Origin: Crambe crambe
Taxonomy: Eukaryota > Porifera > Demospongiae > Poecilosclerida > Crambeidae
Length of the DNA stretch: 64,000 nucleotides
Assembly: GCA_963924555.1 (NCBI GenBank)
Contig: OZ004591.1
Span: 558,001 to 622,000 of the forward strand
Direction: 5' to 3'
Both the position numbers and the translations under genes were made by a program. The notes beneath the pieces were generated by a model. That model was not told where the DNA came from, made no database searches, and worked only from the letters and a program-made list of their open reading frames with translations. This document shows, piece after piece, positions 19,932 to 63,737 of the stretch (position 1 is its first letter; each line of letters starts with the position of its first letter).

Positions 19932-20150
19932 TGCTTAATGAAATGAAAGAAGAATTATATCGCAGTCCCTCCAGAATCAATGTGCTCTTTTTGGAATGAC
20001 AACTTGAATGTTTTTACTTATGTTACCAAGCAACTAACGAGCCCGCCCACGCACATCATGAGAGTGTGATACGCCCATGATGAGCTATACCTCTAATTAA
20101 AGCCCACCAAGACGAGTTTATCTCTTCAAAAAAAGAGTGCTTTATTAAGT
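19932..20150. promoter_or_regulatory. DYNC2H1/COMMD8 divergent promoter with an RFX X-box match
   Basis: The two start codons are 219 bp apart on opposite strands, so both core promoters must fit here. At 20022-20034 the sequence reads GTTACC-A-AGCAAC, a full match to the X-box consensus GTNRCC-N(0-3)-RGYAAC bound by RFX factors, 91 bp upstream of the DYNC2H1 ATG. RFX sites close to the start are typical of ciliary genes. A short inverted pair CATCATG...CATGATG lies at about 20057-20083. Function is inferred from motif and position. Confidence 0.65.
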
Positions 20151-22281: not shown

Positions 22282-24249
22282 TTATCTTGAACAAGAGAGA
22301 ACATAAGCATATTCCACTCGAAAGAAGTTCCACATGAAGCGACGAAGAACTCCACCAACAACAAGAACTGAAACAACAACAGAAAGTATGAAAAGACTAG
22401 TATTTTTCAAAATATTAAACTCACCTGTGTAAATCAAGTCAGTGTGTGTATCCCAAATGATAGCCAAGGATAACTTCAGAGTCCATAGGAACCGCAGCAC
22501 CAGATCGAGGACAATGGCCACCAAGTATATTACTTTGTGTCTGTACAGTAAACGACGTTGGAATAGGCCACAGTTTTTGATGTCCCAGAGTCCCCAATCG
22601 AAACTAATGTCCCACAGAGAGGTGTAAATGGCATGAACCAGAGAGACTACTGCCCAGCAGATGATGACCCATAGTATTTTATTGATACCAAGATGATCCT
22701 CAACTGTGCTGCTCTCTATGGTTGCATAGATTGTAGCCATAACGATCACTGGGAAGACAGTGAAATACTTGCCTGCATTCACGAGATGTTTGACTGAATG
22801 AGTGTCATAGTAGCATCGCAAGCATTGGAGCAAGCGCCAGAGTGCTGGAAGAAAGGAAATAATCGGACGAATTCCATTGCTACTTGAAGTGCAAACCATT
22901 TTATCAACGTCGTCTCCTGACCACGAGCCACTAACCAGATAACAAACAAGATATTGTATATCCAGGAAGACCGCCACAAGGCTGTTTAACTGGTCAGCGA
23001 GAAAGAAATCTGAGAAAGACACAAACACAAATGGAGCTAAGAGAATGTTCCCAAAGGTAAGGATAAAATTGAACCGAGCTTTTCTTAGAAGAATCCTTGA
23101 AGGATTAAAGATAAAAGCTGCTAGAATAAGCCACATGATAACTGGAATTATTTTGATTGGCAAAACAACAAAGAACGGACTAGCAATGGTGAAACAGACG
23201 GTAAGCAAAGTAAAAATGATTGTTAGTATCCCAGCAACATTGAAGACATACGTTGGAGTAGGAATGCCGTTGGGATGGTGATCGAAAATGGAGATGTAGT
23301 CAATTTTATATCGGATCCAAACACTCAAGTTGATGCCGTATAAATAGAGTACCAGGACTATAAGAAGAGGAGAGCGAACCAAACGTATAAACATGATCCA
23401 CTGATCGGAGGAATTGCTCCACTTGTACATACCCAAGAGTACACCTATGAGTACCATGAACAGGATGCCGTGTATCCAGGGTAACCAACGCACTCCGCTC
23501 TTGTCACCTGGAATGGAATCGGGGTGGTAGCGAAGGTGTCTCACTCCATCAATAGTAATATCATTTTTGCGACGAATTTCATCCATTTGATTTCCAATGT
23601 CTTTCAAACACTCTTTGAGTCGACCTTCAAATTCGTGTCGTTTCTGAGTCTTCACAGTGACCAATTCCTCCACGTCATCTGAATTGAGAACATGCCTGCC
23701 CTTTCTTGCAAGATAATCAAGTTTGGCACAATTGGTTTCTAAGATGTCTTTCAACTCCAACACTCTCTGCTTCACATTGCATAACACACCAAAAGCAGAT
23801 TTGTGTTCTTTCGCCTCATCTTCAGCAGTGGTAACTTCATTAAAGATACTAATGTTGTCGTAGTCACCTGCTTTCTTATTGATAGTCACTGCAGCAGCAA
23901 TTGTATATTCATTTGATGATTCTTCCATTCTCTTCAAACCTTCCTCAATTCCAGATGTCTCTTCTTCCATGAAGTCAAATAGCCTTTTCACTTCAAGCTC
24001 AGAAAAAGATGCTTGTTGAGAGACTGAGAAAGACTTAGAAGTCCAGAATACATTTCTATTGGTGGAATAATGGTTCATACCTGATAGTGAACTCAATCTA
24101 ATAGACTTTGAGAATAATGGTTCTGCCTCGTCCTCTGACAGTGGATGATAAGTGTCCTCTATGGAGCAATATGCAGGCTCCAGTGGATGACTAGTAATGC
24201 TGGATAAGGTAGCAGGCATCAAACTTCCATCGCTACGTTCATTGGCCAT
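22282..24249 (-). CDS. XPR1-like phosphate exporter with EXS domain, copy A
   Basis: Polytopic membrane protein of the SPX-EXS family, whose animal member XPR1 exports inorganic phosphate. The EXS core is clear: SDFFLADQLNSL, ALWRLLQCLRCYYDT, HLVNAGKYFTVFP, DWGLWDIKNCG and RRFMWNFFRVEYAY. Many hydrophobic helices span about 23,500-22,300. The N-terminal cytosolic part keeps SPX-like helices (KRLFDFMEEE, FEGRLKECLKDIG). It lacks the usual opening MKFxxxL and the lysine-rich FRKILKKHDK segment that binds inositol pyrophosphates. A likely 57-bp intron (22368-22424, GTGAGT...TTTCAG) is divisible by three and stop-free, so the frame stays open through it; removed, the protein has 636 residues. It is a tandem paralogue of the next gene. 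Confidence 0.85.
   Translation of the reverse strand: MANERSDGSLMPATLSSITSHPLEPAYCSIEDTYHPLSEDEAEPLFSKSIRLSSLSGMNHYSTNRNVFWTSKSFSVSQQASFSELEVKRLFDFMEEETSGIEEGLKRMEESSNEYTIAAAVTINKKAGDYDNISIFNEVTTAEDEAKEHKSAFGVLCNVKQRVLELKDILETNCAKLDYLARKGRHVLNSDDVEELVTVKTQKRHEFEGRLKECLKDIGNQMDEIRRKNDITIDGVRHLRYHPDSIPGDKSGVRWLPWIHGILFMVLIGVLLGMYKWSNSSDQWIMFIRLVRSPLLIVLVLYLYGINLSVWIRYKIDYISIFDHHPNGIPTPTYVFNVAGILTIIFTLLTVCFTIASPFFVVLPIKIIPVIMWLILAAFIFNPSRILLRKARFNFILTFGNILLAPFVFVSFSDFFLADQLNSLVAVFLDIQYLVCYLVSGSWSGDDVDKMVCTSSSNGIRPIISFLPALWRLLQCLRCYYDTHSVKHLVNAGKYFTVFPVIVMATIYATIESSTVEDHLGINKILWVIICWAVVSLVHAIYTSLWDISFDWGLWDIKNCGLFQRRLLYRHKVIYLVAIVLDLVLRFLWTLKLSLAIIWDTHTDLIYTGEFNILKNTSLFILSVVVSVLVVGGVLRRFMWNFFRVEYAYVLSCSR
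22368..22424 (-). other. Probable 57-bp stop-free intron inside XPR1-like copy A
   Basis: In gene direction the segment starts GTGAGTTTAA and ends GTTGTTTCAG, exactly where copy B has a 241-bp intron between ACAG and G(GC/TT)CTTGTTG. Its translation (19 residues) has no counterpart in copy B or in known XPR1 proteins. It can be retained without breaking the frame. Confidence 0.75.
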
Positions 24250-24619
24250 AGTTTAACTTTTGGGAGTCGCGGTGTTAAAGGTAGCCCCTCCCGCGGATGG
24301 ACCACTCGCTTTAAAATGTGCATGCGCATACCTTTGAAAATAATAATGCATGCACCGGCGCGCGCGGATGTGGTATTATAACTACTAGGCCCAGCCTAGC
24401 CCAAGGCAAGTGAAGGATCAAGCAATTTGAAAGAGCGGTAAATAAACAGGCAGGGTTTAAAGGCGCCTCAGCTCAAATAGGTTATAGCTAGATGCTAGCG
24501 ATCTTGCCAGCCAAGGTGGGCAGAGATCCAGCAAATTATTAAATTAATTATTATATCATAATGCACAAATATTAATAAGAGAATGGTATTATTGTTCCTA
24601 TAAATGCTGTGCAGGAGAA
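24250..24619. promoter_or_regulatory. Spacer between the XPR1-like copies (promoter of copy A, 3' end of copy B)
   Basis: No gene is seen. The part next to copy A includes a CpG-rich patch (CACCGGCGCGCGCGGATG, about 24354-24371) that stands out from the AT-rich surroundings and may mark the promoter. The rest is AT-rich and probably the copy B 3' UTR. Confidence 0.45.
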
Positions 24620-26807
24620 CTATTTCTTGACAGAGCAGGAGAGAGAATGAGCATACTCCACTCGAAAGAAGTTCCAAATGAAGCGACGAAGAACTTCAGC
24701 TACAACAAGGCCTGAATAAAGGAATTGGGTATTGAAAGAATAGTTCATAGGAGAATTAACCCCCTGGCCCCTCCCCTTACAATATAATCATACAAATCAG
24801 TCTTCAAAGTTATTTTTAGAACTTTGAAAACTTGAGCTATTTTTGTCAGTGCTTTTTTAGATTACATCATTAGTCCAAATAAATCCTGTGATGCAAGTAA
24901 TACTTTATAAGGAAGTCCTAAACCACACATGCAATAGCTACACCACACTCACCTGTGTAGATCAAATCAGAGTCCACTTCCCACACAATTGCCAATGTTA
25001 GCTTCATAGTCCACAGGAACCGCAACATCAGATCAAGGACGATGGCTACCCAATATGTTACTTTGTATCTGTAGAGTAAACGACGTTGGAATATGCCACA
25101 GTTCTTGATGTTCCAGAGTCCCCAATCGCAACAAACATCCCACAGGAAGGTGTAAACGGCATGAACCAGAGCAGCTACTCCCCACAAGACGATGACCCAC
25201 ACAATTTTTCCATTTACAACTTCCCCAGCACTATGGACAGTGGCATAAATAGTGGCAAAGACGATGACTGGGAAAGTGGTGAAGTATTTGCCTGCATTCA
25301 CGAGATGTTTGACTGAACGAGTGTCGTAGTAACATCGCAAGCACTGGAGCAAACGCCAGAGTGCTGGAAGAAAGGAAATAATTGGTCGGATGCCATTACC
25401 ACTTGAAGTGCAAATCTTAGTATTGGCTTCTTCTCCTGACCATGAGCCACTCACCAGATAACAAAGAAAGTACTGTACATCCAGGAAGACTGCCACTGTG
25501 CTGTTAAACTGGTCAGCGAGAAAGAAATCCGAGAAATACACAAACACAAAAGGAGCCAAGAGAATGTGAACACACACAAGAATAAAGTTGAACCGAACTC
25601 TTCTTTGAAAGATTCTGAGAGGGTTGAAGAGAAAGGCTGCTAGAATAAGCCACAAGACGACTGGAATTATTTTGATTGGCAAGACAACTGAGAATGGACT
25701 GGCAACAGTCAAACCGATGATTAACACTGAAGTAATGAAAGTCAGTATCCCGGCAACATTGAAGATATATTTTGGAGTAGGAATGCCATTGGGATGATGA
25801 TCGAAAATGGAGATGTAGTTAATCTCGTTTCTTATCCAAACTTTCAAGTTGATGCCGTACAAATATAATACCAGAATAATGAGGAGGGGAGAGCGAACCA
25901 AGCGTAAAGACACGATCCATTGGTTGGAGGAATTGCTCCACTTGTACATTCCCAAGAGTACACCTACAAGTGCCATGAACAGGATACCGTGCACCCAGGG
26001 CAACCAACACACAGTCTCGTCACCTGTAATGGAATCGGGGTGGTAACGAAGGTGTCTTACTCCGTCAATAATGATGGAATTTTTGCGACGAATTGCATCC
26101 ATTTGATTTCCAATATCATCCAAACACGTGTTTAGGCGGCCTTCAAATTCACGCTGCTTCTGAGTCTTGTCTTTGACTAATTTTTTCATTTCCTGTGAAT
26201 TAAGAGAGATGTATTCTCCCATTCCAACCAGACGGTCAAGTTTGGCACAACTGGACTCCAGGGTGTTCCTCAACTCCAACACTCTCTGCTTCACACTACA
26301 TAACGTCCCAAAAGCTGATTGGTACTCTTTAGCTTCTTCCTCAACTGTATTACCAATACTTATGTTGTCATAGTCACCAGGTTCTGCATTGATGGTCACC
26401 ACTGTGGCACTTGCATCAAAATGATCCTCTTCATCAGCCATCTCCTGAATCCTGTGTTCTACTTTTGAGGTCTCTTCTTCCATAAAGTCAAATAATCTCT
26501 TCACTTCAAACTCCGAGAAAGGAGCTTGGTGATGTATTGAGAAGGATTTGGGAGGTTCTGAAGTTTTAATATCCGTATAATACCCACTTTCATGTGAAAT
26601 GGTGGAGCAACGCTTTATTCTGTCGAATGGCGACACCAATCCGTTCGAGTTCAAAACTAAAGAGCAGGATATTTCTTCACTGTCGTCAATCTCTGACCCC
26701 TTGGCAGAATCTTGGGATGACTGCGGGTAGAAGGTGCCGTAGACAGGCTGTGGTGGATAGCTACCATTGATGCCCACTGGAATCACACTTTGGCACTCAC
26801 TGCTCAT
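24620..26807 (-). CDS. XPR1-like phosphate exporter with EXS domain, copy B
   Basis: Paralogue of the neighbouring gene, likely also exporting phosphate. Exon 1 is 26807-24953 and exon 2 is 24711-24620; together 648 residues. Reading exon 1 past its donor ends in an intronic stop, so the terminal exon must be joined: it codes GLVVAEVLRRFIWNFFRVEY and ends SCSVKK, completing the EXS C-terminus. The EXS motifs SDFFLADQFNS, LWRLLQCLRCYYDT, HLVNAGKYFTTFP and DWGLWNIKNCG match copy A almost residue for residue, while the N-terminal 100 residues differ widely. As in copy A, the SPX-type lysine cluster is not visible. The same orientation and shared intron position indicate local tandem duplication. 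Confidence 0.85.
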
Positions 26808-27472
26808 AGTTTTTCAGAAACATTACAGTCATCATTCCTATTGTTGAGTGCTGTGCTTGGTGTTCTACGACTGTCGGTGTGTGTAATTCCTACACTAGCT
26901 GTAAGTTCTAGCAGATCCTGATAGACAACGATCACGAATCGGTAATATGTAGCTACGACAACTCATTATGAAGAACGAACGGTAAACATACAATCTAATC
27001 CACTAAAACATGTACGAGTTACTCACACGGCAAAGGAAGTTACCGTAATTTTAATCCCAGTAGCTGAAAGACCCAGACTTCTTCTTAGTCAGTTCAAAGA
27101 TACTTCTCACCCAGTTTCTCACCCGTCCAACATAGTACCTATACCCAGCAGGCCCGCTCGCGCTTAAAATTAGGGGATGGAACGCATGCGCTTGCCTGGC
27201 CGGCCCATGCATTGCACATGCACACGTGTCCAATAATTTTTAATCACGATCTCTGCATGTACTAAACAATTACAGTGAATTGTAAGTTGGTTGTCTAAAT
27301 GTAAAGCGCAAATAAAACTTGCATGTACTGAGGAAAAGCCACAGGAACAGCCTCAAGTTTACACAGCTCTTTTAGATTTTGCATCTCACATTGGATAACC
27401 AACTTGCAAAAGGCGCTCCCCTAGCAGTGAAGTGAGCATGCGCATTAATAACCAATAATGATAATGTCTCAT
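26808..27472. promoter_or_regulatory. Spacer: promoter of XPR1-like copy B and 3' end of DCAF8
   Basis: No coding potential supported. Both flanking genes read leftward, so this holds the copy B promoter on its left and the DCAF8 3' UTR on its right. A GC-richer patch occurs at about 27150-27230. Confidence 0.4.
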
Positions 27473-32886: not shown

Positions 32887-34810
32887 TCATATGGTCAATT
32901 CTCCTTTCATTTCAGTTCCATTCTTCGTCTTTTCTGTTCCATTCCTGGTAGGTGGATCATAGCTCTGTATCACACCCATGACTCCAGCCACGCCTTCGCT
33001 CACTTTCTTGGCCTCTTCACGGTGAAGATCGGTTGATACCATGTCCAACTCCCCATAAGACTTCTCCCTCTCATCCACACCCACTTCCTCCATGTGGTCC
33101 TCTCCCTGAACTCCGTTTCCCCTCCCACCAGATACAGGTGTCGTCGAGGAACTCTCACTCCCTGACCTATACTCGGCCCCACCCCCATGAGATCCATGTG
33201 ATTGGGTGTTATTGCGGGAACGGATATAGTTCTGAACGTCACAGGTATACTTGAACGTCAGCTTCTTCCCCTGAACCTTATCCATGATTCCTTTGCTGTA
33301 ATAGTAACGAAGTCCACGGCTCAACTTGTCGTAGTTCATGCGTGGTTTGTTCTTCCTCGCACCCCAAAGTTTAGCAATCTCTTCTGGTTGGAGGATTCTG
33401 AATTCGTAGCCGTTGCCTGTCCAGTGGATCATGTGCTGTTTGTCTGGGGACAAGAGGAGGTCTAGCAGAAACTGCCACAACTGGATCGGGCCACGACCAG
33501 CTGGAACTGGAGGGTGGAAAGTGAAAGTTATGCTAAGTAACATGGTGTAATCACTAACATGGTATAATTACTAACATGGTGAAATCACCAAGTAACATGG
33601 TGTAATCCAACACTAACATGGTGAAATCACTAAGTAACATGGTGTAATCACTAAGTAACACGGTGTAATCACTAACATGGTGAAATCACTAAGTAACATG
33701 GTGTAATCACTAACATGGTGAAATCACCAAGTAACATGGTGTAATCACTAACTTATGCAATATGATCTCTGTAGTGACTTACATGGTGGAAGGTTTGTCC
33801 CCTCATGCAAGGGAGGCAGAGTAGTCTGCAGTCCCCCGGCTTCCACTATCTCCTTCAGTTCCTCTGAGTCATGACTAGGGGTCACTGGGGTCATTGGCTG
33901 GTGGGACTGAAAGGTAGGCGTGGCAAGAACCATCGGCGAGAGTGCAAAGTTCATGAGGGGACTGCTTTGGGGTGGTGTGGGAAATCCCAACATGGGGTCA
34001 TTCATCTTAATATCCTGGGGGATGTGAATCACAGTGGGTGGAGCTAGCTGACGAGGACGCATCCCATCGGGGATCCTCCGAGCCTTGGTGATCTCCACTT
34101 CCTCCTCTTCGTTCTGTTCCTCAATCTCGTCCTTCTTGGAGCACAAGGAGGAAGAAATCTGGGAAAGATGAGCGATGTCAGGGAGAGAGCTCGATCGTCT
34201 CCGTTTTGGCATGGAAGGTCTCATATCTGCTAGCATGTCAGAATCCGGAGATCGAGTCCTTTTGTGGTTAGTCTGGGAAGCATTGGGGGACTTCAAAGTC
34301 CTCTCTCCCTCTTTCATGGGACTAACATCACTGACCTCCTGTGTGGCCCCCAGGGTTTTAGTCGGGATTAAGGTGAGGGTTCCGTCTGGGAGAATGAAAG
34401 GAACTTTGTCAACAAGTCCCTGTAGGAGGGTGGGATCTGATAACATCATTGGTTTCCCTCCTTCCTTGGATTGCTGAGATAACAATTGCTGGAAAGCGGC
34501 TTGGTAGATGGGGTTAAACATGGCAGCTGTCACTGAATACTGAGGGTTACAGAGGAAATTGGCCGGACCGCTTCCCAGAAAGGGGAACATGCCTGCTGCA
34601 GCTGCTGCTGCGGCTGATGTCGTATTAAAAGGGTTAATGGAGGGGTTAACGGGGGATTTCTGAGGAGGGGAGAGCCCGTCTTGCTGCGAGGGCTGGGAAG
34701 AAGCAAATTTAGGAGGGGGCTGTGATGAGTGGGTGTGACCAGGATGCATGGCTGTGGAAATGGAGAGTGCACTGATGGGGATTTTTGGGAGTGTAATGGC
34801 TGAGGATGTC

Positions 34811-34847
<37 letters not shown>

Positions 34848-35752
34848 GCTGCTGCTGCTTTTGTTGCTGTTGTATCTGTTCGAAATGCTGTCGCAGAAAC
34901 TTTTCCTGTTCTTCTTGGCTGAACTTTGAACTCAGCGAGGATTGAGCCCCAGCAGCTGCAAACATTCCAAAGGAAGTGGAAGGACAATTACTAATGGATA
35001 AACTCTGCGCTGATGAAGAAATCACTTTCGCCTTTTTGGCAATCTCAGAATCGACTAGCTTGCTCCAACTCTGAGCCTCTGAAATAAATTTCTTCTTTTC
35101 CTCAGCAAATTCTTTCCCGGGACGTGCACCCGCATTTTTATGATTGGCAGAGGGCATGACCTTGGGATTTGAAGAGGATGTTGTGGCTACATTCCCCCCA
35201 TGTTTGAACTGGTCAACATACTCAATCTTCACCTCCATGTGGCCGTTGTCCTTCGAGAAAGGAGCAGGCTGGCCAAGAGTGCTTGTCTTCAGAGACCCAA
35301 AGACGCTGGAAACATCTGATGGATATGCAACAAACCCCTCAGGTATTCTGATAAAGTCTGGAGCACTCTCTCTGTGGAGTAACACTCCGTTATTTCGCCT
35401 CAGGGCCTGTTTTGATGAGAGGCGGTCCTGGTACGTGAGTCGATCCCTCTCCGACTGGGCCCTCCTGACTTGTGTGTGTGTCCGGTGGGCACTGTAAGGG
35501 CTGAGCAGTTGCCCCTCCCCCAGCCCTTTGTTAGAAGCCACACCTCCCAGTGACGTGAGGGATGTGGAGCTGATTAAGGGTGAGGGGAGGGAGGGACGGG
35601 TGGAAGTGGAAGAGGGGAGTGGCTTGGAGGAGACAGAGGGTGTGACAATTGGGGTCCACATGGAAGCAATGACAGATACGTTAGTGGTTAATGAATGGGG
35701 TATAGCCACACCAGGAGGCTGGATGGTCTGGGTTGAAGACTGAAGACCTGTG

Positions 35753-35816
<64 letters not shown>

Positions 35817-37972
35817 ATACATACTCGTTTTGGTGTTAATCTTGTTATGATAATAGCCTGCGGTTTCTATTATGAGGTAAAGCCAATACTAGCCCATGAA
35901 TACCTGCAGGCTAATTCACTTCTGAGAAAATGGCCAACAAGCAGCTGTTTTACTGTACATGGAAATATATTATGGCCTGGCTAGCTGGCAAAGGCCTATG
36001 GGTATGCACTCCACACCTTATTATTGGCACTTAAAATTGGGAGCCTCCACTTTTCCACTAATTGGGATGCCCGATTCCATGGACAAAGACAACAAAGACT
36101 TCTGTACTGCATGATCGAAGCCATCTGCAATGGTATATGAAGACTTGGACCAACACTCCAAAAAGGTCAAAGAGGCCTACAATGGCCAGAGGAACCTCCC
36201 CCTACTTGAAAGAGGAAACAACCTCAAAGAGGAAACAACCCCAACCACCTTATTACAAAGGTCGTAAGAGTGCAGCTGTTCAAAACAAGAGTCCCAAAAT
36301 CCCAAACTAATGGACTCAATCCACAAAAACAAGAGTTGATAGGTACTACCAAATGCACGAGTTTCCCACAGAATGTGAGTGACAACAGGAAGCCAACCTT
36401 AGCCAAGTCAGGTCTCGTTGTAAAATATAGGCACATGCACCTGCACACACAGAAACACGCACCTCTCTGCCACATTGTGTCTGGCTAACCACGTGGCAGA
36501 CATAATTATAGGAGTTTGGATGAGTTGTCTTGCATTGGGTTCCTGTCAATTGCACAGTTACTTCCTAACCCACAACACCCCCTCTCTCATCCACACTCCA
36601 AAAATACAGGGAAACCACAGCTGAAGTAGGAGTCTTGCTGACTCACTTATACGTCTCCATAGCGATAGAGAACTCTGCTCTCTCTCTCACTGACCCACTG
36701 TATGGGAAAGCAGTTTGTCAAGTCACTCAAAACCACCACATCCTTTGTCCCAAATGGTGTCTATAACGGTTGGACTGTGGAGCCAGGAAGGAAGATGGTG
36801 TCTATAAAATGGTTGGACTGTGTATATACTTGAGTCAGGAAGATGATTTAAATGGTGTCTATAATGGTTGGACTGTGTATATACTTGAGTCAGGAAGATG
36901 ATTTGATATTGACACTGCTTTGGGGTCATGCATGGAGAGAGAGATTCCACTGGCCTGCTTAGGAAGCTAGTCAGGTATGGCAAGGAAGACAAGCTGACAA
37001 TGGAGGGAAGCGTTATTCAAACATTCCAGGTGAACATAAGGAAGCCAGTGAGAAATTCCCCAAACACCTGAGTGTTGCTTCCTCCTCAGTAGTAGTAGTA
37101 AGGAGCACCATCACAGCGTGTCATAAGGTGTCATATCTATATTTTGACTATCATGAATAATTTATCATGTCCAGTCGAGCAACTTGAGGTTGAAACGACT
37201 TCATAAATCAGGCACAAGCTATGTGATGATGATATATGTGCTACCTACCAATGACCTTTGGACTGATTATGACATAGCTCCTTGGGTTGAGTTCCAAATG
37301 CAGTAATTCCCAGGTTGCAGCTGTTGTAATTAAGCATAAAGAGGTCATGTAAAAGGTCTTCCAGGAAAGTGTCTGGCACCTACTCCATAACACAAGGTGA
37401 ACAAGGCAGCTGCTTCAACTGCCCTATGCCATGTAACTACTCTAACACTGACTCCCTTCTAATAGGAAAATAACCTTATATTTTAGGCCCTACATTAATG
37501 CACCTAAAAGGTAAGAATTTTCCTTTTTCAAATTCTGCCACTTATATTATAGTTCATACCTTGAGATGTTTCCATTGGTGATGGGAGAGGAGAAACACTA
37601 TTTCTTATGACAGCTGCTCTCTTCAGCCAAACAGTGATGGCACTGTTCACCATGATGCCAAGCAGACCACTGTGCAGTCCAGGAGAATTGCTAGGTTCAC
37701 TGGGAGGCAGAGGGAACAGGATTTTCCAGAGTTCCTTCAGCCCACCACGATCCAAATAGAGCAAGAGATGATGGTAAAAGTGCTCGTGTTTCATTGTCAG
37801 TTCATGGACATTGATCCCCGAGGTGACCTTTACCCTCTCTGCTGCATCAAGGCAGCTGTTCTTGTTGGCATAGAGTAGCGTGGTGCTAATCTTGTTTCCT
37901 GAAGCATCTCTAGTACCTGTAGTATAGTATACATACCACAGCATTGTATGAAAACAAGAAGAACATCAAAGT

Positions 37973-38032
<60 letters not shown>

Positions 38033-38106
38033 TATGAAAACAAGAAGAACATCAAAGTGACGAGAGAGAGAGAGAGACTTTATGAAAACAAGAAGAACAT
38101 CAAAGC

Positions 38107-38153
<47 letters not shown>

Positions 38154-41100
38154 TAGCAGCAACTATAATGGACAATCCCTAATCCGATTAAACCGACAAC
38201 ATGTACTACTAATGTTTTCCTGACGAGAGATTGAAAGCCCAAACCTTGGGAGTCAAACCCCTACCTTATTAAATAGTCATCAATCAATTAGCTTCGATCC
38301 CCCCTCCCCCCCCCCTCTCCCTGCCTTCAGAATCAGAGGGGAAGAGAGGAATTTCTATCAGTCTATAAACATAACTAATTCACACATTAACACCCTGGTG
38401 GGATCCAGGAACCTTATTAAGGGAACATCTGGTCTCAACAAAGGTTTGATCTTCATTTGATTGGATGTAGTTGTGTGTGTGTGTGGGTGAAACTAGGGGT
38501 TACATCCCAGTGAAGTGGTTGTCCTGTATCCAAGGAAGACTATTGTATGCATTCAATTATAAGTGCCAAGAATTTAACCCTTTCCACTTCAGACGCAGGG
38601 ATTTAATTAACCCCTTCCACTCTAACAATAAGGCAGGAAGTAAGATGTTTCACACAGAGCACCTTGTCTAGCCATCCAAATACAGCACCAACACACACTA
38701 TCCTTATCATGTAGCAAGAGAGCAATTACATGGTTAGTACTTCCTATCTTATACATCCATAGATGTGCACTGATACATTCTTATGACAAAGGAAAACTTA
38801 GAGGCTGCCATACTTTCAGTTCAAAAGGACACAGTTTATCTGTATCCATAACAACTGTATGGCTGGTAGGAAATTGATGAGTGAAGTTATAAGCCAATGC
38901 AGAGTTTATACTAACTATCAAAGCAAAACACAAACCATCCCAGTCTGTTTTCCTTATCAAATCTGAACCTGTGACCTTGTTGCTGCTTAGTTCTAGTTAG
39001 TGGGACATAATAAGCAAGAGCTGGCTGGCTGGGGGGAAAAACCAATTTAATCACAACACCACATACGTTCTAGTATAAGACTGCATACAATAACAACCAG
39101 AGGGCTTTTTGACTGCATGAACACTCAATGGTATTCGTGATGCAATGAGGCAACTCCTACAATTAAGGAAATTCCACATCATATTAGTATACCAACACAT
39201 AGGATCCAGTCATTCACACAACAAAACTGCTTCTTTTTGGGTAAGTGCTAACATTTGTGCCACACATTCAGTTGCTTTCCACAATGCTAGCTGTTTGGAT
39301 GCTATAATTTGATTTTTGAAGAGGAGGAATCTATTCACATTATTATGGTCAGTGTGGTAACTATGGCAACAGATCACCTGGGGAACAAGGAAGTGATCGG
39401 CTCAGCTACCATCTGGGAATGGGCAAGAGAAGAAGAATAAGTTACTGGGAATGATAATGTCTGTTATATGCGATTCTGAGAAAAGTTATTGACTTACATT
39501 ACTACTACCTACCCATGTAGGTAGTTAAGGCTTTGCTAATGACCATATAATTGAAGAAGAGCCAACCCTTATCATTCACAAAAGACTGCCAGAGTAGGAA
39601 GCATAAAACTAGTCTCTATACCTTATATTAGATGACCATATAATTGAAGATGAGCCAACTCTGGCGCTGCAGCACAAAAGACATCTATCCTGCCAGAGTA
39701 GGAATCACAATTTTGATGAAAAGGAATGACGTAATTATAATTGAAGAAGAATTATCCACAAAAGACTGCCTATCCTAGAAGCATAAAACTAGTCTCTATA
39801 TCTTACGGGAAACACTGCGAGATATTCTACATACAAGTTGCAACCGAAATCTGCACTATTCTTTGATGGTTATTTCCTTGGGACACTTGATCAGTGAAGC
39901 ATAGAGAGATAGCTATTTCTAGTGCTCTGGGTCACAATGATGAGAGAATGGACTTTTCCAGCTCAGTGCACACAAAATAGCCAACTACAATTGTGGAGCG
40001 GAAACATGCCCCTTACTCATGCTAAACCAGCTGTATCTTTGTAAATACTTGCGTTTGATTGGCTGATACCACATTTACGGTTCAGAATCATCACACATCA
40101 TCATCTTAATTAACATCACTTTCACTATACCTCAGTTATTTTTAGACACCTTTGATGTTATCACATCACTTCTAATAATTCTGGGTCCTGTACCCCAACA
40201 ATCACATATAACTTTGTCTAACTGATCCTGAACGTCAAGGAAAGGATCAACTAATTTGCAAGTCTGTTGCCATGCATACATGCTGGTACATGGTGTTGGT
40301 CCCAGCTACAGGATACCTTAATAACTCTCAGTTCTAGGCGGATACATGCTGATACATGGTGTTGGTCCGACCTTTCACAGTGCCATCCCTCCCACCCCAT
40401 CTACATAATATAATGACTGGGCCATCTGGTGATTTACACTTGCGGTTCAAATATAGGCAGCATCAGATAAACATGTCATATCCCTCCTAATCTTGGCTAA
40501 CCAGCCAGCCAGCCATACATCTCACCCGCAATAGTATCAACACACACTCCTTAATCCCCAGGCTACATAAATAGAACCTCATCCTGACTGTGGTTCTCAC
40601 AAGGTACCTAATTCATGGCGCTAGATAGGAAATGGAGAAAGGCCTTATCACCCACTCCCTTCAGGAATTTTCCTGCTATGCACTTCCATTTTCTAGATCC
40701 CATGGAAACTGTACTGTCCTTATGGAGGTATTCTCAATTATAAAGGTAATGGGAGTTTAATAACACTGTCAGGGTTCAAGAAGCCCAGCCTTGATCCTTA
40801 TGGAGGCAATTTCAATTAAAGAACCACAAGTTATGTTAGCTAGCAAAGTTAGCCCTATAGTGGGCCCAGCTTCCCCAAGACACAGCCTAGATGCAGACAG
40901 CTTGGGAATCTAATAACAGGGTACCACTAGAACAAGCTCAAAACATTGCAAACTTCCCCCCAGCTAACCTATAGTGTTATTAGCAACAATCAGTACCATG
41001 TATGTGATGACATGATTAGTGTCTATTAAACCACATTGCCAACCAAATGCAAGTTGACTGTCAGTGGAACTTGACGAGTATAATATGAGCAATAGCTATA

Positions 41101-42304
41101 CAAGGAGACAGAAATCCTTAGCACACAAGTAGATCCAGCATTTCAAATGCAAGCACCCAACATGGGGCAGCTACTGCACTGCAACACCCTAGTACTGTAA
41201 GAGGTCAGAGCCTGAGGCTCCTTCTGGATTTTTCAGTGTCATATGTGGTGGTGGTAGGCCTTCAAAATAACTAAACTGCTCAGTCAAGTGAGTACTTGTA
41301 TTGTGCTATCCAGACTTTGTTGCATCCATTATATGGAGGACAATAAGGAAAATATACTGGTGGAGCTATGCCACCTGCAAGGGATTCACTGTCACCAAAA
41401 CATGCAACATTCTTCCTCAGCACAGTGAACTTCCCTCACCAACCAGTTTTGTTTGTAGTTATGACTCACCTAAGCGAGACACTGGGGAGACAGGTAGAAA
41501 CACTCTATCCAAGTTTGCCAGCTGCGGTACCCTCAACGTGAGTGCCACCAAAGGCTCCTGGAGAGACAGTTTAGGTGCTGAGGATATGAAGAGAGGAGGA
41601 GGGTGTGTGGAATCCAAGAATGTCCTTGCAAACTTGGGAAGGAAAGGGTCGTAGAATTCTCCATCGAATCCCACAAATATGACACTCCTGTTACGACACG
41701 CCTCCTTCAGGATGGGACCACCACAAGCATCTCCTACTAATTTCTTGTAATTGACGCAATCGCAACACACAGACTCCACCTGAGAGTATGCTCCATGCAC
41801 ATGGAGAATTCCAGGTCGTTGGCGACTTGCCCACCCTCGGACTGCCTCCTCATCGCTAAGGAAGACGGGGACCGTTTCCATACCTACATCCAGGATGGTA
41901 TCGTAATACGTGTAGATCAACAAAGCTCCTTTCTCTTGCAGTGAATGGAGCTTCTCCACCACTCCACCTTGCTTCTTCTGAATGGGCAAAGAGAGAAGAC
42001 TCCCAAATAAGTCATTCAACCACTGCTGGTACACTCCATGCTCCCTCAATACTTCCACTACTTTACTAGCAGCAAATGCAGGCTCCAACTCATAAGCACC
42101 AACCAGCAAAGAGTGCTTCCTGGTTTTTTCTTCCACACTTTTCGTTGCTTCCAATTCCAGCATCTTCTGGACACCAATATCAACGAGCATGGCATACGAT
42201 AGTGCAGCAGGCACCCCCTCGGCGAGTGCTAATGAAGCTGCAGCCAGCTGCGGTCCAAGAACCAAAACAGATCGTTCTGGGTCCACCTGAACTAACGGAT
42301 CCAT
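32887..42304 (-). CDS. SIR2-like (FAM118-type) / ETS-domain fusion protein, complete
   Basis: Four exons, 42304-41470, 37916-37560, 35747-33783 and 33506-32887, all joined in phase 1, give one uninterrupted frame of 1,258 residues. Residues 1-279 are a SIR2-like Rossmann domain closest to FAM118A/B: LVLGPQL (15-20), [14 protein letters not shown] (126-139), [10 protein letters not shown] (165-174) and [13 protein letters not shown] (208-220). Residues about 280-398 form a second domain ([27 protein letters not shown]) that I cannot name. Residues about 398-1052 are low complexity, with a polyQ tract, a polyA run, the stretch [15 protein letters not shown] and a basic PKRRRSSS. Residues about 1058-1142 are an ETS winged helix ([13 protein letters not shown]; recognition helix [10 protein letters not shown] intact), so it should bind GGAA cores in the nucleus. 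The SIR2 Asn usually before Y-D is Tyr. Large introns (3.5 and 1.8 kb) could hide extra exons, but none is needed. Confidence 0.8.
33507..33782 (-). repeat. Minisatellite filling the last intron of the SIR2/ETS gene
   Basis: Irregular alternation of TAACATGGTGTAATCAC and TAACATGGTGAAATCAC, with or without TAAG linkers, at about 33540-33760. In gene direction the unit contains CACCATGTTA, close to the exon 3 donor CACCATGTAAGT. Confidence 0.85.
34809..34868 (-). repeat. Coding CAG/CAA repeat (polyglutamine) in the SIR2/ETS protein
   Basis: A run of TTG and TGC triplets on the plus strand codes about 17 consecutive Gln followed upstream by QIQQQQK. It lies in the low-complexity linker at roughly residues 690-712. 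CAA codons dominate, which slows repeat instability. Confidence 0.95.
35757..35812. repeat. (GA)n microsatellite at the exon 3 acceptor of the SIR2/ETS gene
   Basis: About 28 GA units. In gene direction it is (CT)n ending in TTACACACAG at the 3' splice site, so it acts as the polypyrimidine tract. Confidence 0.95.
36733..36905. repeat. Tandem repeat of about 65 bp in intron 2 of the SIR2/ETS gene
   Basis: ATGGTGTCTATAA and GGTTGGACTGTG recur three times with CTTGAGTCAGGAAGATG between the last two. The rest of this 1.8-kb intron (35748-37559) shows nothing coding. Confidence 0.75.
37917..41469. other. Intron 1 of the SIR2/ETS gene (3.55 kb)
   Basis: No supported exon. It contains GA microsatellites, a (C)n run near 38300 and degenerate duplications. 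An element with AAGACTGCC and GCATAAAACTAGTCTCTATA recurs between 39520 and 39810, and CATGGTGTTGGTCC occurs twice at about 40290-40370. It is AT-rich with no protein-like frame. Confidence 0.6.
37948..38151. repeat. Compound repeat: three (GA)n blocks with a shared 30-bp linker
   Basis: (GA)n blocks at about 37976-38029, 38062-38077 and 38110-38151 are each preceded by GAAAACAAGAAGAACATCAA. It lies about 60 bp upstream, in gene direction, of the exon 2 acceptor of the SIR2/ETS gene, where it reads as (CT)n. Confidence 0.9.
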
Positions 42305-56273: not shown

Positions 56274-57618
56274 ATGAATCCATCGCTGGAGATATGGCCT
56301 TCTGCTTGTCTCTTCATAATAGGGCCTCAATTGACTGCTAATTCCTGTCCTGATTCTGCAAGATTGCACTACAAGACTATACTGAACTGTGGATGTGCAA
56401 TGCTCAGTCCAGAACATGTAGAGGGCAATATTGAGCAGTTTATGACACTAGATCCTTTGAAATCAATGGAAAAACTGCTAAAGGTATTGAGGAGGACAGG
56501 TTTGTATGAAGAATGGTTGAGAAGAACGTTTAACTTTAGCTTCAGTGATGATGCCAAGCACAATATCCCCAGCTCTGTTCAATGGCTGCATTACCTGCAG
56601 CAGATGGGGGCCATGTTAGCATGCACACAATATGATACTCTTCTGGATGGCTTTCTTGATGCTGAAGCCGTGACTATGTCCAATGAGGATGCAGCAGCGT
56701 TTGCAAAATGGTTGAAGAATGGAACAAAAGTATTGAAAATGACGCCGCATACACGACAGTTGAGCTCTGTTAATGATAAGACAATTGAGCAACAAGTTGA
56801 TGCAGACGCAGAATCCATTGTAGGCCAAAAATCTCAAATCTTGCATCTGCATGGAGTCCATACCATACTGAGTAGCATACGTCTTCTTCCATATTCCTCC
56901 AAAGAAAGGGAGTCCGGAAATCATGATAGTGACAGCTCCATCCCCAAGGAACAGATAGAGGCCCTGAGGGAGCTCTTCCACAACAAACTTGTCTTTTTGG
57001 TCGGATTTGACGGAGAACACTTTGACCCTCTCCTCCTGTCTCTTCTACAACTCTTGTATCCAGAAAGTGACTCTAAAATCCTGAAAAACCCTCCAGTTCT
57101 CCTCAGCACAACCTCCTCCCCTAAGGACGACCCCTTGCACTATGAACCTGCAATTTTATTACGACTGAAAATCAAGTCGATGGAGAACTTGAGAGAAGTC
57201 ATCCAACCTGGCTCCCTGAAGAGTTTTTCTGTTGGTAAGTTATTGGCTGGGTCCCTCCTCCCTCGATTTTTTCCCCTCTGCATTTCTCTGTGTCTCATTG
57301 CTTGTTCAATTCACCCATGAAAAGGGGATGCCCCTCTAATCAGGTGACATTTTAAAAGGGGTCCACATAAACTGCATGCAAAGGCTCAGTAATTCTGCCT
57401 AAAGTGCTGATACCTTAGAAGGAAATGGTGATCATAATGTGGATTCATCAGTCAAGTGCATGCATGTGGAACACAAACTCATTTAGCTAATGCTCCCTGG
57501 CATTCTTATTCATTGTTAATATTCATTTATATAGTAGTACCTTCATTAAAATGCTTACAGGTAATTCCATGTGGAGGTTGTTGAGTACAACTGGTGCATG
57601 AAGTATTTTCTTGGGAGG

Positions 57619-57690
<72 letters not shown>

Positions 57691-60600
57691 AAAAGCCTCA
57701 CAGGAGTCTTAGGAGGTGATGTAAGGTAGCCAGCATGTCTGTCTGTATATGCGCACCAATTGCCAGCCCTGACTCCGGGCCACATATTTACTAATAATGG
57801 GGACTGTGGCCCTTTTTTTGCCCGGGCCTATATGACTCTACCACAATTTGGTTTTTTGAGGTATGACCTTTTTGCTGGACTGCAAGACTCTATAACTACT
57901 CTATACTTCCTGTAGTGTAATGGCCCTGTATGGCGCTTGCCTGGCCCTGTAGGCTTGCCTGGTTATGGCCAGGCTGCCCATGGTAACCATCCCAATCCTC
58001 CAAATCCTCCCGTGAGAAACAGAAGTGAAATGTCTGTCCAAGACACTAAAAGAATAGATAAGGAGGGTAGAATACCACCTCTCTACTATGATTGAATACC
58101 TTATCTCACCTATATATTTTTATTAGCATATTTTGTGTCTATGGGATATGAATATTACCATGGGATGTAAGCTGACCTTTATTTCGGCTTGAATTCACCA
58201 TGTGCTCAACTCAATTATTATTATTTTTCTCAGTCTGGTCTCCATAGTTATTATAATATTGTTATGTAACCACTGTGACCCATATGGCATATGAATTGGT
58301 CACCTATCAATTAGCATTCTCTTCTGTCTGTCTGCTGGAATCTGACTGATAAAAGAGTTTTTGGATCTAGGGCATGATTCAGTGGGCGTGGTAGTAGAGT
58401 AAGTAATGATGACAGTTAGTAATAGCCCTAGCTTACACACCAGTTATTTCCCCTCATATTCTCATTACAGGATCTCAGTAGGATTGATATAACTGCCTTA
58501 CTGCACTAATGATAATGATAATAATAATGTGTTAGTTTAATAAACACTTGAGGTACCAATGGACAGATATAAACCATTCATGCAGACACAATGCAGAGAG
58601 ACCCCCTTCCTGTATCATCTCAAATAGCACTCTGAATATAAGAATAGTATGTCTGGATCTTAAATTGAAAGAATCTTATCTCCATAGCTTGAGTGCTGTA
58701 CTCAATTCACTATGCCAGTAGTCTGAGCAGTTAGTGATGTCTGACCAGTTAGTGATGTCTGACCATTGCCATTAGCAGCCAGGCTCAATTTAGACTCATT
58801 TACTCACTAATTTAATTTGCAGCTTGCTTAATAATATGGGTTATGTAACCCAGGGTATCCCATAGTTGGAGTCACCCCACCACTCACTCCTGTGTGGCAG
58901 ACTGTGGTGAAGCAATCCACCAGTCAAATGTTCAAGATTGTGTCTAGATTATAATGTGAGAGAACACGGTTGGCAGGGTGATATGTCAGAGAGATTCCTG
59001 CATGCTTTCTCTGCATGGCATGAAAGAAAAGTCACAGAGTGTTGCAGGAAAACCCATCATGTCTGCTCTGGATCATTAAATAACATCACTCACTCTTATG
59101 GAAATTTTCGTTGGATAATAATTCATGTTCACAATTTTCATGTTGCTTAATTTTCGTTGTTACAGCTTTTACTTATAATTAGATTTTAAACTATTTTGTA
59201 CAAAGTAATTAATTTTCGTGTTATTTTCGTTGTTGAACATAATCACAAAAATTAATCAACATGGAAAATTTCCCAATTTTCGGTGGTAGATGGTACTTTC
59301 CAAAGCATGATAATAACATTGACCACATTCAATTTATGGGAGTCTATTTCCTTGCTTACTTCATCACCTGATCCCCCTGGCCTGGCCCTCCAGCTCTCAT
59401 GCAATGTATAACAGTACAGGGGCAATCTGACAGAGGAAAAATCTCCGGGCAAAACTGCTGTTTGGCCAGCCATTTTCCTGTTGGCATTACAATAGAAAAA
59501 AATAATATATATAGCAAATTCAGTGCAAAATTAATGTCATGTCAGGTCAACTGTGATTAGTGGCCATGTGTGTAGCTACATAGATAGAGCTTCCAGCATA
59601 TCCACTGCTACAGACCAATGGTTAGGTTATCAGTACTCATACTATTAATTAAATTAGGAAGTTGACCTGTTCTCATGGACTGCCGCAAGTAAGCAGAGTG
59701 GCTATGCTTGCATGGGGGGTGTCTGGCATCAACATGTGTAGGAAGAGTTTCTCTAGGTTTTCCCAATCAATAAATAGCTTGGCCTGACCTCTTGCACCCT
59801 GCAATGACCGATTGGATTTTTAAAAATCTTTACTTAGCTGTAGCTATAGCAACCAAGCTGGTTATATCATAGCGTGGCCACTTTTTACCAGAAAAAAAAA
59901 GTGAACCAGGGACTCTCTTGCCATTATCATAAAGCTCAAGATTTAGAGGAAGAGAAATGTAGCTAGCAATCTCTTCTTGTAACCAATAAGAACTTAATTG
60001 TCATTTTAAAATTGGTATCAATATGATTATACTCCACTTCCTTGCACTTTTGTTTTCATAGGAAAGGAACACTCAGACAAGCACTGCGATGGGAAGATGA
60101 AAATCCAGGCCTTTCTCCTCTTCAATGAGAAACAGAGCTTCCGGAAACTGGGGGACATCATCTACCAGCAGAGCAAATCGGGTGAGATCTACGTCCGACG
60201 AGATGCCCTCACAGTAATCTTTGACGACAACAAGATCTTGTACGGCAATCTGGTGACCTATGGGGGCAACGGACTTAGACAACTGTGGGATTTGGTGTTT
60301 GCGGAGAATTCAGCACTTGTGGGGAAGGGATTGGTGGCTCTTGGACTGCAGAATGCCGTCATTGTGTGGATAAACAGCAAACCTAAAGCTCTGGGAGGAA
60401 TCATACGTAAGCAGTTCAATGGTGGGATATTAATTTTTCAGTATATACCAATAGTGAAAAAGATTGTGTTGCATAAGCAATGAGGCATACTTTATCACTA
60501 GGTATCAAGGCTACACATGAGCAGTGAATCTTTTTTCTTTCTTTTTTTTTTGGAGGGGAAGAGATCATTCATAATTATCAATGTTGTAGAAAAATGTCCT

Positions 60601-63600
60601 CATGATGACATTAATCATCCTTGCTTGCCCCCCCCCCCCTTTTTAGTTTGATGAGATCAGTGCTAGACTAACTAATCCAACAAAGGGGAAAGGTTGTTAT
60701 AGACAGCATTCCTCCAACATCACAATCCCACGAAATAAGGGTTAGCAACCTTTGTCTGTCTGTGCAGAGGACACCTGATCTGTTCTGTAAATATTCCTTT
60801 CATGTGGTGCTCTAAAGGTTCCTTTCTCATCACGGTGACATGCACTGACTTCCATGGCATTTAAGCCATTCATAATGATATAACACTGCCACCTCACTTT
60901 TTTGATTCATGTCCCTCCTCCTACAGTCACGAAAACCGGGCTTATGTATTATTATAATGAATCGCTTATTGTGTGGTGTGTAACTAACTCTCCTCATTAT
61001 CATGAACCGCTACAATGCTACCTGTGATAACACCACCATCACCCTCTTTTGTTTCCATTGTTATCTGATCCATTCTCAATGCCACAATCTTAAAATCTGG
61101 AGTAGCCCTTCTGGCCTTTGGTAAAGTCATTGAGGATTTATTGTAGTGAGAGAGAAAGTGGTGCAGTAGCTAGCTAATGGGAACCTCCACTCCAAAAGAG
61201 GACATTTGTATATGCACTCTATAACCTCCTAACCTTCTCTACAAAGGGGTCCCAAGTGTGTCCATCACTATGAAAAAAATAGTGTTTTTCAAGAGAAACT
61301 TGAAAAAAACATAGTGTATTTTTTTGTAGGATATGCAAAGGCACAACATATTTCATAATCATAGGAAACATGGAAACTTGCCATGCTCTGGTGTATCTCA
61401 TGAATTTTCTCATCAAGTTTCCCTACAGGTTTCAGGCTAGGATTCTCCTATTTTTTGTAGTGCATTGTTTGAATGTGTTGGCTAGCTGGCTAGTATATTT
61501 AAAGGTTTAGTCGATTATACATGCATGATTCTTACAATCATTTGAATGGGGTGATCATCATGTAAAGGAGTCTTCTAATAAGTGCCATCTCTAATCTTAA
61601 CATACATTGGCTGGCTAGTTAGCTACAGAGTTGAGAATATTCTACTACCACTCCATGCACTCCTATACAGGTACCATAGATTCAGTACACACTCCTGCTG
61701 CACATGAATTTATTCACAATATGGCCATGGCTCAAAACTCTTCCTCCTCTTCCTCCTCATCCTCCTCCTCCTCTGTAGTCTCGGAACAAAGCAACAACCA
61801 GAAACCACTCCCATTCTACACACCAGTCTCCACAACTCTTCCTTTGACTGCTGTCTGCAGAGATGGAGTTCCCACACCACCCCCAAGTAGTCACTCCTCC
61901 GTGGCACCTTCGTCCAGCACCTGTGGAGAAATAAGAAAAGAGAAAACATCAAAACGTATCACTTCTACAATCATATCACCACCACCACCACCACCAAACT
62001 TTATCAGCATCTCAGCAGCTAAAACAAACCTGATGCCCACTCACGTGTTCCCTCGTCCTCTGATCTTAGATCCTTTCTCCCTTTCCTTCTTCCCTGGTCT
62101 TAATGCCAGAGCAGCTGGCAGTCTGACCAGTCCTCAATATCTCCTCAACCTTCCCAACAGTCAGCTCCTCACACCAACTCCATTCCCACTCCCCATTCTA
62201 CCAATCTCAGTACCACTTTCAATTTCCCCAACTTTGGTTCCATTCTCAATCCAGCCATCAGTAATCCCAGTTTCCATTCCAATCATGGCTCAAGGCTCAC
62301 TATCATCATTGCAGTCTCAAGGTAGTGTAGTTCCTTCTCCCCCGGACAACCACTTCCCAGTCAAAACAGCAGGAGAGCAAGCTGATGTTGAAATGCTTAC
62401 AAAGATTCATGATCGTATCAACGAGCAGCTTGCCTCAGTGTCTCCTGATGAAGACTCAACTGTAGAAGTAATCAAGTCTCATGCACAAACTAGTCTACGA
62501 CAGAGCATTTTATGCACCTCACCTTCATCTATGAACTTTAAATTCAATGTAGCCGGGCCCCCAGGCATGCTTGCTAATACCCCCAGCCATGAGCAACACC
62601 TGAAGAGAATTCTAGAAGAGGCTGAAGTTGCAATCAAATATGTTGATACCAAAGGCAGTTGTAGTTCAACTGGTGAAGAAGACTCTAGTTCCTCCTCAGA
62701 CACTCCTGTAGTTGTCACCTCAGGGAAATTCACTACGACAACATCCCATGCATCACTTATCAGAGAACCATCTCTTGTCCCATCGGTTCCCTTACCTATA
62801 TCAGTTCCTTCATCGCTTCCTCTTCACCCCTCCTCCTCCTCCTCATCTTCTCCTCTCAAGTCTTCCAGTCTTCCAACCATCCTCCCCATCAGCACGAAAC
62901 TCCTATCACCACCAGTTCACCCTCTCCTCTACACATCTCCCTCAACTTCCACACCATCAGCTCTGACATCTCCTCTAAGCTACTACAATCTCCCTGGACT
63001 GTTCCAAACTCCTGCTTCTCTGAAGGAGACTCTGGTTTCCCCAGAACATGCCACTCCCTATCTCAGCCTCCAGCAGTTATCTTCAGTGATGAGAGGGACA
63101 GGAATTGTGCCTGGAGTGACGGGCGTGCCTGGAGGGATGGGGACTGTGCCTGGAGGGATGGGGATCATGCCTGGAGGAATGGGGATTGTGCCTGGAGGAA
63201 TGGGGATTGTGCCTGGAGGGACGGGGATCATGCCTGGAGGGACGGGGATCGTGCCTGGAGTACCATTGGTGAATGTCGTTTCTAGCTCTCCCCCCATGTA
63301 CAATGTTATGATCTCTAATACATCTCCTCTGACTCCTCCCAGTGAAGTTTCAGTCATGTCAACTACAACTATGCAGGGTGTGGAGCAAAGTGGTTCTGAA
63401 TCTGATGACATGGGAATGTGCACCAATGGGAATGGAAATAATAGACTTCAGACTCAATCGCTTAGCAGAAAACGACAGACTAGCTCGCAGACCTCGACAG
63501 GTACAAAAACCCTCAAACTTTCTGGTTCTCCCACATCCACAACTCCTCTCTCTCGTGGAGCAATACTTGCAGCAAAAATCAGCAGAGAAAGTAGAGATCA

Positions 63601-63737
63601 GTTACATGGCCATATGGGTCTCATTTTATCTCCTTCCCCCTCTTCTGGTCCTACCAAGGCCACAGGTCAGCTAGTGGTGACCTCAAGGAATCCTTCTCCA
63701 GGAAATGACCCTTCTAGTCTCAATACCAAAGCAACAG
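56274..63737 (+). CDS. SIR2-like (FAM118-type) protein, paralogue of the SIR2/ETS gene; 3' end outside window
   Basis: Three exons, 56274-57234, 60062-60406 and 61671-63737, joined in phase 1 for 1,124 residues so far, end at a GTGAGT donor, so at least one more exon lies beyond the window. Exon order, sizes (961/345/2067 against 835/357/1965) and phases copy those of the minus-strand SIR2/ETS gene. The SIR2-like domain has FIIGPQL (14-20), GAMLACTQYDTLLD (112-125), ILHLHGVHT (189-197) and LVFLVGFDGEHFDP (239-252). The second domain has GGNGLRQLWDLVF and LVALGLQNAVIVWINSKP, matching the other copy. The third exon is Ser/Pro/Thr-rich with polySer, polyPro, a (V/M)PGG(M/T)GI octapeptide array and a basic LSRKRQ. 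The paralogue predicts an ETS domain next, not seen here. The upstream ATG at 56211 is rejected because the homologous part starts at MNPSLEIWPS. Confidence 0.8.
57235..60061 (+). other. Intron 1 of the second SIR2-like gene (2.8 kb)
   Basis: No supported exon. It holds a (GA)n tract and, at about 59095-59290, an AT-rich stretch with repeated AATTTTCG words in both orientations, perhaps an old short transposon copy without clear ends. Otherwise it is unremarkable AT-rich DNA. Confidence 0.5.
57616..57688. repeat. (GA)n microsatellite in intron 1 of the second SIR2-like gene
   Basis: About 35 GA units after a GGGAGGGAGG lead-in, roughly 380 bp downstream of the exon 1 donor. Confidence 0.95.
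60407..61670 (+). other. Intron 2 of the second SIR2-like gene (1.26 kb)
   Basis: No coding signal beyond a short read-through of exon 2. It has a poly-C run near 60630 and is otherwise AT-rich. It ends CTCCTATACAG at 61670. Confidence 0.55.
63106..63262 (+). repeat. 24-bp coding repeat (octapeptide VPGGMGI-type)
   Basis: About seven in-frame copies of GTGCCTGGAGGGATGGGGAT (plus four bases) code the repeating unit (I/T)(V/M)PGG(M/T)G within the low-complexity region of the second SIR2-like protein. Pro/Gly periodicity suggests a flexible beta-turn linker. Confidence 0.9.

Follow-up and report, generated by a model that had tools for sequence, protein, structure and literature searches.

ETS transcription factors are usually controlled by Pointed domains, phosphorylation or autoinhibition, and SIR2_2 proteins are immune assemblies linked to nicotinamide adenine dinucleotide (NAD). 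The two kinds of protein appear to meet in a predicted gene, here called A, on the minus strand of a stretch of 64,000 nucleotides (nt) from the sponge Crambe crambe, which we refer to throughout as the window: at a probability that we put at roughly 0.85, four exons predicted from genomic DNA encode a single protein in which a SIR2-like domain is fused to a complete ETS domain. The fusion is supported because two diverged paralogues on the same contig (C14), genes B and C, share the exon order and intron phases of A. No described SIR2-ETS protein was found by text searches of the open-access PMC literature, and gene A would be an ETS factor with a new control domain. Of this reading, the sequence supports how the genes are laid out, the existence of paralogues, what the domains are and which residues have been lost, as set out below.

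With the ETS1/ETS2-type factors, TEL1/ETV6 and Yan, gene A shares the ETS winged helix, a phase-1 intron 5' of that domain, a long linker and an N-terminal module, and the differences are that this module is a Pointed/SAM domain there and SIR2-like here, and that the recognition helices of B and C are damaged. FAM118A, FAM118B and the SIR2_2 sirtuins, among which the account in PMC12700824 includes ThsA and DSR1/2, resemble A, B and C in a homologous SIR2-like domain, a catalytic histidine and the presence of more than one paralogue, whereas gene A is only 26% identical to FAM118B, an essential asparagine is lost, a DNA-binding domain is fused and the position of FAM118B F122 is unconserved. 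The nearest published parallel that we found is provided by the YAP1::FAM118B tumour fusions described in PMC12700824, which likewise place a SIR2_2 assembly domain on a transcription regulator; those are tumour rearrangements, whereas here we would be dealing with a duplicated gene family that has its own DNA-binding domain. Lastly, Mae and TEL2, which published work on the regulation of ETS factors through SAM domains describes as tuning Yan, TEL1 and ETS1/2 (PMC3355116; PMC6226293), offer the likeness proposed for B and C, namely that of partners that share an assembly domain with a DNA-binding member and modulate it, with the difference that Mae and TEL2 act via a SAM domain and B and C would use a SIR2-like one.

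Structure and domains of gene A

Coordinates of gene A are given as window positions, and those of genes B and C and of the ETS and Pointed matches as positions on C14 unless marked as window positions. Gene A is laid out on the minus strand in four exons that read as one frame of 1,258 codons with a single terminal stop, GT donors, AG acceptors and phase 1 throughout; this is the frame that the sequence-only reading had proposed, and the exons lie where it had placed them, save that the start of exon 3 is corrected to 35747. Exon 1 (41470..42304, 835 nt) holds the start codon and the SIR2-like domain (residues 1-278), and exon 2 (37560..37916, 357 nt) an accessory stretch (residues 279-397); a long linker rich in serine, proline and glutamine, with a basic KRRR stretch, is encoded by exon 3 (33783..35747, 1965 nt), and exon 4 (32887..33506, 620 nt) carries the complete ETS domain, a C-terminal tail and the stop codon. 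The three phase-1 introns are of very different lengths: intron 1 (37917..41469, 3553 nt) contains three ATTAAA hexamers on the gene strand as well as (CT)n tracts, intron 2 (35748..37559, 1812 nt) has neither AATAAA nor ATTAAA on that strand, and intron 3 (33507..33782, 276 nt) consists mostly of a tandem repeat with 21-, 38- and 59-base units. Tandem repeats with such units and AG/GA runs, at 33533-33752, 35757-35813 and 37947-38151, make up most of intron 3 and also occur close to the exon 2 and exon 3 acceptors.

Database comparisons bear out a SIR2-like N-terminus and a complete ETS domain within the one frame. Residues 1061-1139 match the Pfam Ets profile at an expectation value (E) of 2.6e-32, with ETS2 and ETS1 as the top PDB sequences (best, ETS2 4bqa, E 1.1e-36), and a phmmer comparison of exon 1 with PDB sequences returns FAM118B (9r3e) at E 1.8e-8 over residues 8-215. 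The SIR2-like region is thus N-terminal, as first proposed, within narrower limits: the FAM118B match is confined to exon 1, and the stretch encoded by exon 2 stands apart from it and matches no Pfam family convincingly (best DUF1508, E 0.17). A Pfam search of exon 3 found no domain.

A family of three diverged genes

The genome searched comprises 143 megabases in 119 contigs, and in the six-frame searches with SIR2 halves only the best candidates were scored, exon by exon. The SIR2-like half of A returned three significant loci, all on C14: A itself, 614274-615215 (+) and 651260-651985 (-), the two additional copies both lying within about 52 kilobases (kb) of A, with an additional match on contig C5 at only E 0.645. 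Searches with the SIR2 halves of B or C returned the same three loci plus one match at E 8.2, and the 19 matches to ordinary SIR2 in the genome lie at other places. Each of the three significant loci has a same-strand ETS exon to its 3' side, within an identical four-exon, phase-1 layout that runs from the SIR2-like exon through a second exon and a long exon of low complexity to the ETS exon; the nine introns of A, B and C are all of phase 1 and at matching places, eight with GT donors and one, in gene C, with GC.

Gene B begins in the same window as A, and its model encodes 1,224 amino acids in four exons on the plus strand: exon 1 (window 56274..57234, C14 614274-615234), with a SIR2-like domain 31% identical to that of A; exon 2 (window 60062..60406, C14 618062-618406); exon 3, the linker (window 61671..63737, C14 619671-621737); and exon 4 (C14 622233-622534), which starts 233 bases beyond the window end and holds a degenerate ETS domain. 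Gene C, of 1,177 amino acids, has four exons on the minus strand (C14 652135-651238, 650807-650490, 649110-647134 and 646418-646078). The SIR2 parts of B and C are 27-31% identical to that of A, and their ETS domains 35% (B) and 45% (C). Exon 2, of about 105-118 residues, gave local alignment scores higher than those of all 300 shuffles for each of the pairs A-B, A-C and B-C, and the exon 3 score of A against C did the same over a gapped, low-complexity alignment; homology of exon 3 among the three genes is uncertain. Since two diverged copies have the same exon order and phases as A, the three predicted genes are, as judged from their sequences, a diverged three-member family of SIR2-ETS genes. 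No relatives outside this genome were confirmed in viral and prokaryote contig collections, which do not cover other animals.

One gene or two neighbours

The alternative that survives best, which we nevertheless consider unlikely, is that two same-strand neighbours, one a SIR2-like gene made up of exons 1-2 and the other an ETS gene made up of exons 3-4, were block-duplicated twice and are never joined in one messenger RNA (mRNA). Block duplication of neighbours also keeps their order, so order alone does not settle between one gene and two. Two separate proteins could moreover be written from the sequence, because the exon-2 frame meets a stop roughly 2 codons beyond its donor in C, 10 in A and 25 in B, and the first methionine in exon 3 comes at codon 29 (A), 17 (B) and 23 (C).

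Four observations speak for a single gene. Despite their divergence, A, B and C all have an exon-2 stretch that ends in a donor and an exon 3 that opens with an acceptor of the same phase 1, and a phase-1 donor that closes exon 2 in three diverged copies marks it as an internal exon. Exons 3-4 are the only convincing conserved coding sequence downstream of exon 2, and in gene C exons 2 and 3 are only 1379 nt apart. Hidden conserved exons were sought among 384 sense-strand frames of at least 20 codons, taken from every intron of A, B and C and from the 3 kb preceding each gene and compared by BLASTP, and the four distinct matches (E 0.018-0.047, 10-20 aligned positions) were weak, were judged to be chance and included none common to all three genes: a frame in intron 1 of A with one upstream of C (in both directions, E 0.038 and 0.047), one upstream of A with one upstream of C (E 0.018), one in intron 2 of B with one upstream of C (E 0.043) and one in intron 3 of B with one upstream of A (E 0.046). 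As a DNA comparison of the same introns and upstream regions gave no match at E <= 0.01 either, no convincing further exon was found in A, B or C.

Signals for polyadenylation (poly(A)) point the same way. Intron 2 is without AATAAA or ATTAAA in all three genes (0 against a shuffle mean of 3.5, with 21 of 1000 shuffles also at 0, in a test chosen after looking at the data), and such a hexamer follows the ETS stop codon at 125 nt (C), 327 nt (A) and 896 nt (B), the downstream sequence being read for 600 nt in A and C and 1000 nt in B. The last exon, for its part, has the ordinary ETS form, since a phase-1 acceptor stands just 5' of the ETS domain in seven of the nine ETS genes of the genome, as judged by eye, and probably in an eighth, with an open frame instead at C14:528490.

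Several observations weigh against the fused family, and against the identity of its SIR2-like part, and we gather them here. Had two neighbouring genes been duplicated as a block, exon order and intron phases would have been copied along with them, and intron 1 does contain poly(A)-type hexamers, three in A and five in B. Intron 2 of gene C needs the GC donor. The SIR2 parts of B and C match each other weakly in the genome searches (E 0.07-0.08); by phmmer, exon 2 is reported for B-C alone (E 0.006-0.009), with A matching neither, and exon 3 shows no similarity among the three. The exon 3 scores of B against A and of B against C are reached by 61 and 92 of 300 shuffles, respectively, so that by this test exon 3 of B resembles neither of the others. 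The Pfam SIR2_2 profile scores gene A at 17.6 bits over the full protein and 20.1 bits when exon 1 is scored by itself, short of the gathering score of 24.5, and on the genome it finds A alone, at E 0.022 and under the cut-off. The SIR2 exon of gene B, compared on its own with PDB sequences, does not find FAM118B, its single match (E 1.5) being to an unrelated protein. The phylogenetic placement of the ETS domain of A and the sole alignable filament-interface residue, both taken up below, belong on the same side of the balance.

The ETS domain and its setting

The genome holds nine ETS matches, six of them on C14, and each of the additional SIR2 exons leads into one. The ETS domains of A, C and B score 117.2, 85.3 and 52.4 bits in the genome search, all above the cut-off of 26.9, and the identity of the A domain is 58% with that of human ETS2 and 59% with that of the gene at C14:528 kb in the same genome. 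A tree built from ten ETS domains does not place gene A firmly (bootstraps 45-91), so that the description ‘ETS1/2-like’ rests on these identities together with the PDB match. An alignment of the nine in-genome ETS domains with human ETS2 shows the recognition helix to be kept in A and damaged in B and C, where the corresponding stretch reads DLNCTLTSDSK and NLVASLKCYF, respectively. GGA(A/T) is read by two arginines of this helix (R391 and R394 in ETS1); A retains the helix with this pair, B and C have lost it, and gene C has neither of the usual arginines.

Membership in the Pointed-domain subfamily of ETS factors would call for an N-terminal SAM_PNT domain, and gene A has no SAM_PNT match at E <= 1. 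Three SAM_PNT matches in the genome are over the cut-off (C14:471289, 467108 and 529685), and A, B and C contain not one of the ten matches of any score. Over-cut-off matches stand 5' of the ETS exons C14:528490 and C14:468227 on the same strand; as two neighbouring ETS genes thus have an upstream Pointed domain, the SIR2 part of A occupies the Pointed position. The presence of this group of Pointed and ETS genes on the same contig suggests that the fused gene may have arisen within an ETS cluster. The local group of Pointed and ETS matches extends over C14:467108-529885, some 61-124 kb from gene A, and its Pointed match at C14:467108 (+) lacks a neighbouring ETS match on the same strand.

The SIR2-like domain and its active site

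By sequence homology the SIR2-like domain belongs to the SIR2_2 superfamily, given that FAM118B 9r3e is matched not only by A but by C alone (E 1.6e-5) and by a profile of A, B and C (E 5.6e-15); PADLOC matches of A are weak (LmuA, E 5.9e-4; Dsr1, E 0.038). The sequence-only reading had called the domain FAM118-type, and FAM118B is indeed its nearest solved relative, but identity between A and FAM118B amounts to 52 of 201 aligned positions (26%), too low for membership in FAM118 proper, which the account in PMC12700824 delimits as a vertebrate clade with at least 41% identity to the human FAM118s.

Residues were compared after the numbering of the FAM118B chain had been shifted until W65, F122, N163 and H206 all carried the right letter; D255, Y307 and L32 of FAM118B, the last of which belongs with F122 to the head-to-tail filament surfaces, fall outside the aligned stretch. 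The catalytic histidine (H206) is a histidine in A, B and C, and the position of W65 holds tyrosine in A and B and threonine in C. Asparagine N163 is replaced in all three, by Y133 in A, glutamine in B and glycine in C, and the GTG loop of FAM118B reads GPQ in A and B and GPT in C. In human FAM118, as reported in PMC12700824, mutating either N163 or H206 abolished NAD processing. Since all three genes have another residue in place of an asparagine that FAM118B needs for NAD processing, their SIR2 part has probably lost this activity and is probably not an NADase.

The competing view, that a catalytic NADase or ADP-ribosyl-type sirtuin was joined to the ETS domain and that the factor consumes NAD at its target genes, is very unlikely in our estimation. 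It can draw on the retained histidine, on the tyrosine of A and B at the position of W65, and on the statement in PMC12700824 that robust activity of human FAM118 requires two paralogues together, three being present here; against it stand the loss, in three of three genes, of the asparagine whose mutation in FAM118B prevented activity according to the same source, the threonine of C and the altered loop, and we have set it aside as the main interpretation on the loss of the essential asparagine. The idea of the earlier reading that the factor answers to a nucleotide signal stays hypothetical, N163 being replaced in all three genes, though H206 is kept and the W65 position is tyrosine in A and B. 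The same goes for its suggestion of filaments: F122R disrupts FAM118 filament formation (PMC12700824), and the position of F122, the sole filament-interface residue (at the filament head) that could be aligned, is unconserved, with valine, leucine and arginine in A, B and C, although a mapping of F122 across clades is a lead only. That the SIR2-like part is a mere annotation coincidence, a chance long frame with a sub-threshold Pfam SIR2_2 score beside a real ETS gene, is practically dismissed, since the frame has stayed open in three diverged homologues, where a frame free of selection would have decayed, and since A (E 1.8e-8) and C independently match FAM118B.

A proposed mechanism

One mRNA, a fusion that preceded the duplications, assembly, a ligand, DNA binding and distinct roles for B and C are points that we infer, and the explanation that combines them, with gene A as a SIR2-ETS gene bearing an assembly or ligand module and B and C as tuning partners, is one that we favour slightly as a whole. 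Gene A would give one protein, composed of a domain of the SIR2_2 kind (FAM118/antiphage sirtuin), the accessory stretch, the low-complexity linker and, near the C-terminus, an ETS domain closest to ETS1/2. Its origin may lie in the joining, via phase-1 introns, of a SIR2 exon pair to the 3' portion of an ETS gene; local duplications of the fusion would then have yielded A, B and C.

How such a factor might be controlled is more tentative, and we hold the part of the explanation that concerns control by the SIR2 module and the roles of the partners to be somewhat short of an even bet. The SIR2 part, probably non-catalytic, would serve as an assembly or ligand-binding module in the Pointed (SAM) position, and A would bind ETS sites of the GGAA type. 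Because B and C have damaged recognition helices and have kept the SIR2 part, their DNA binding is presumably weakened, and they would most likely co-assemble with A and tune it. A bolder version, which we regard as doubtful, envisages a class of ETS factors in which a non-catalytic sirtuin pocket binds a nucleotide (NAD or a derivative produced in infection or stress) and switches assembly on DNA, with DNA-binding-deficient paralogues as partners or antagonists; if true, a nucleotide-switched SIR2-ETS factor would connect transcription with a SIR2 module of the immune type inside a single family of proteins.

A duplicated SIR2-ETS fusion would reveal a second route to ETS activity controlled by assembly, and the family would provide a natural test of whether a non-catalytic SIR2_2 domain can act as sensor or scaffold. 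Dominant-negative control, too, would become directly testable with B and C, whose recognition helices are damaged.

Other genes of the window

Three further groups of features lie on the low-numbered side of gene A. Two adjoining long frames at 22285-26813 (-) carry EXS-family domains (Pfam EXS, E 3.8e-81 and 6.6e-75), and the region 4171-19934 (-) encodes dynein heavy chain motor (4171-8181) and N-terminal (18747-19934) domains. Between these dynein domains, at 14208-15255, are two histone-fold frames, one (-) for H2A and the other (+) apparently for H2B.

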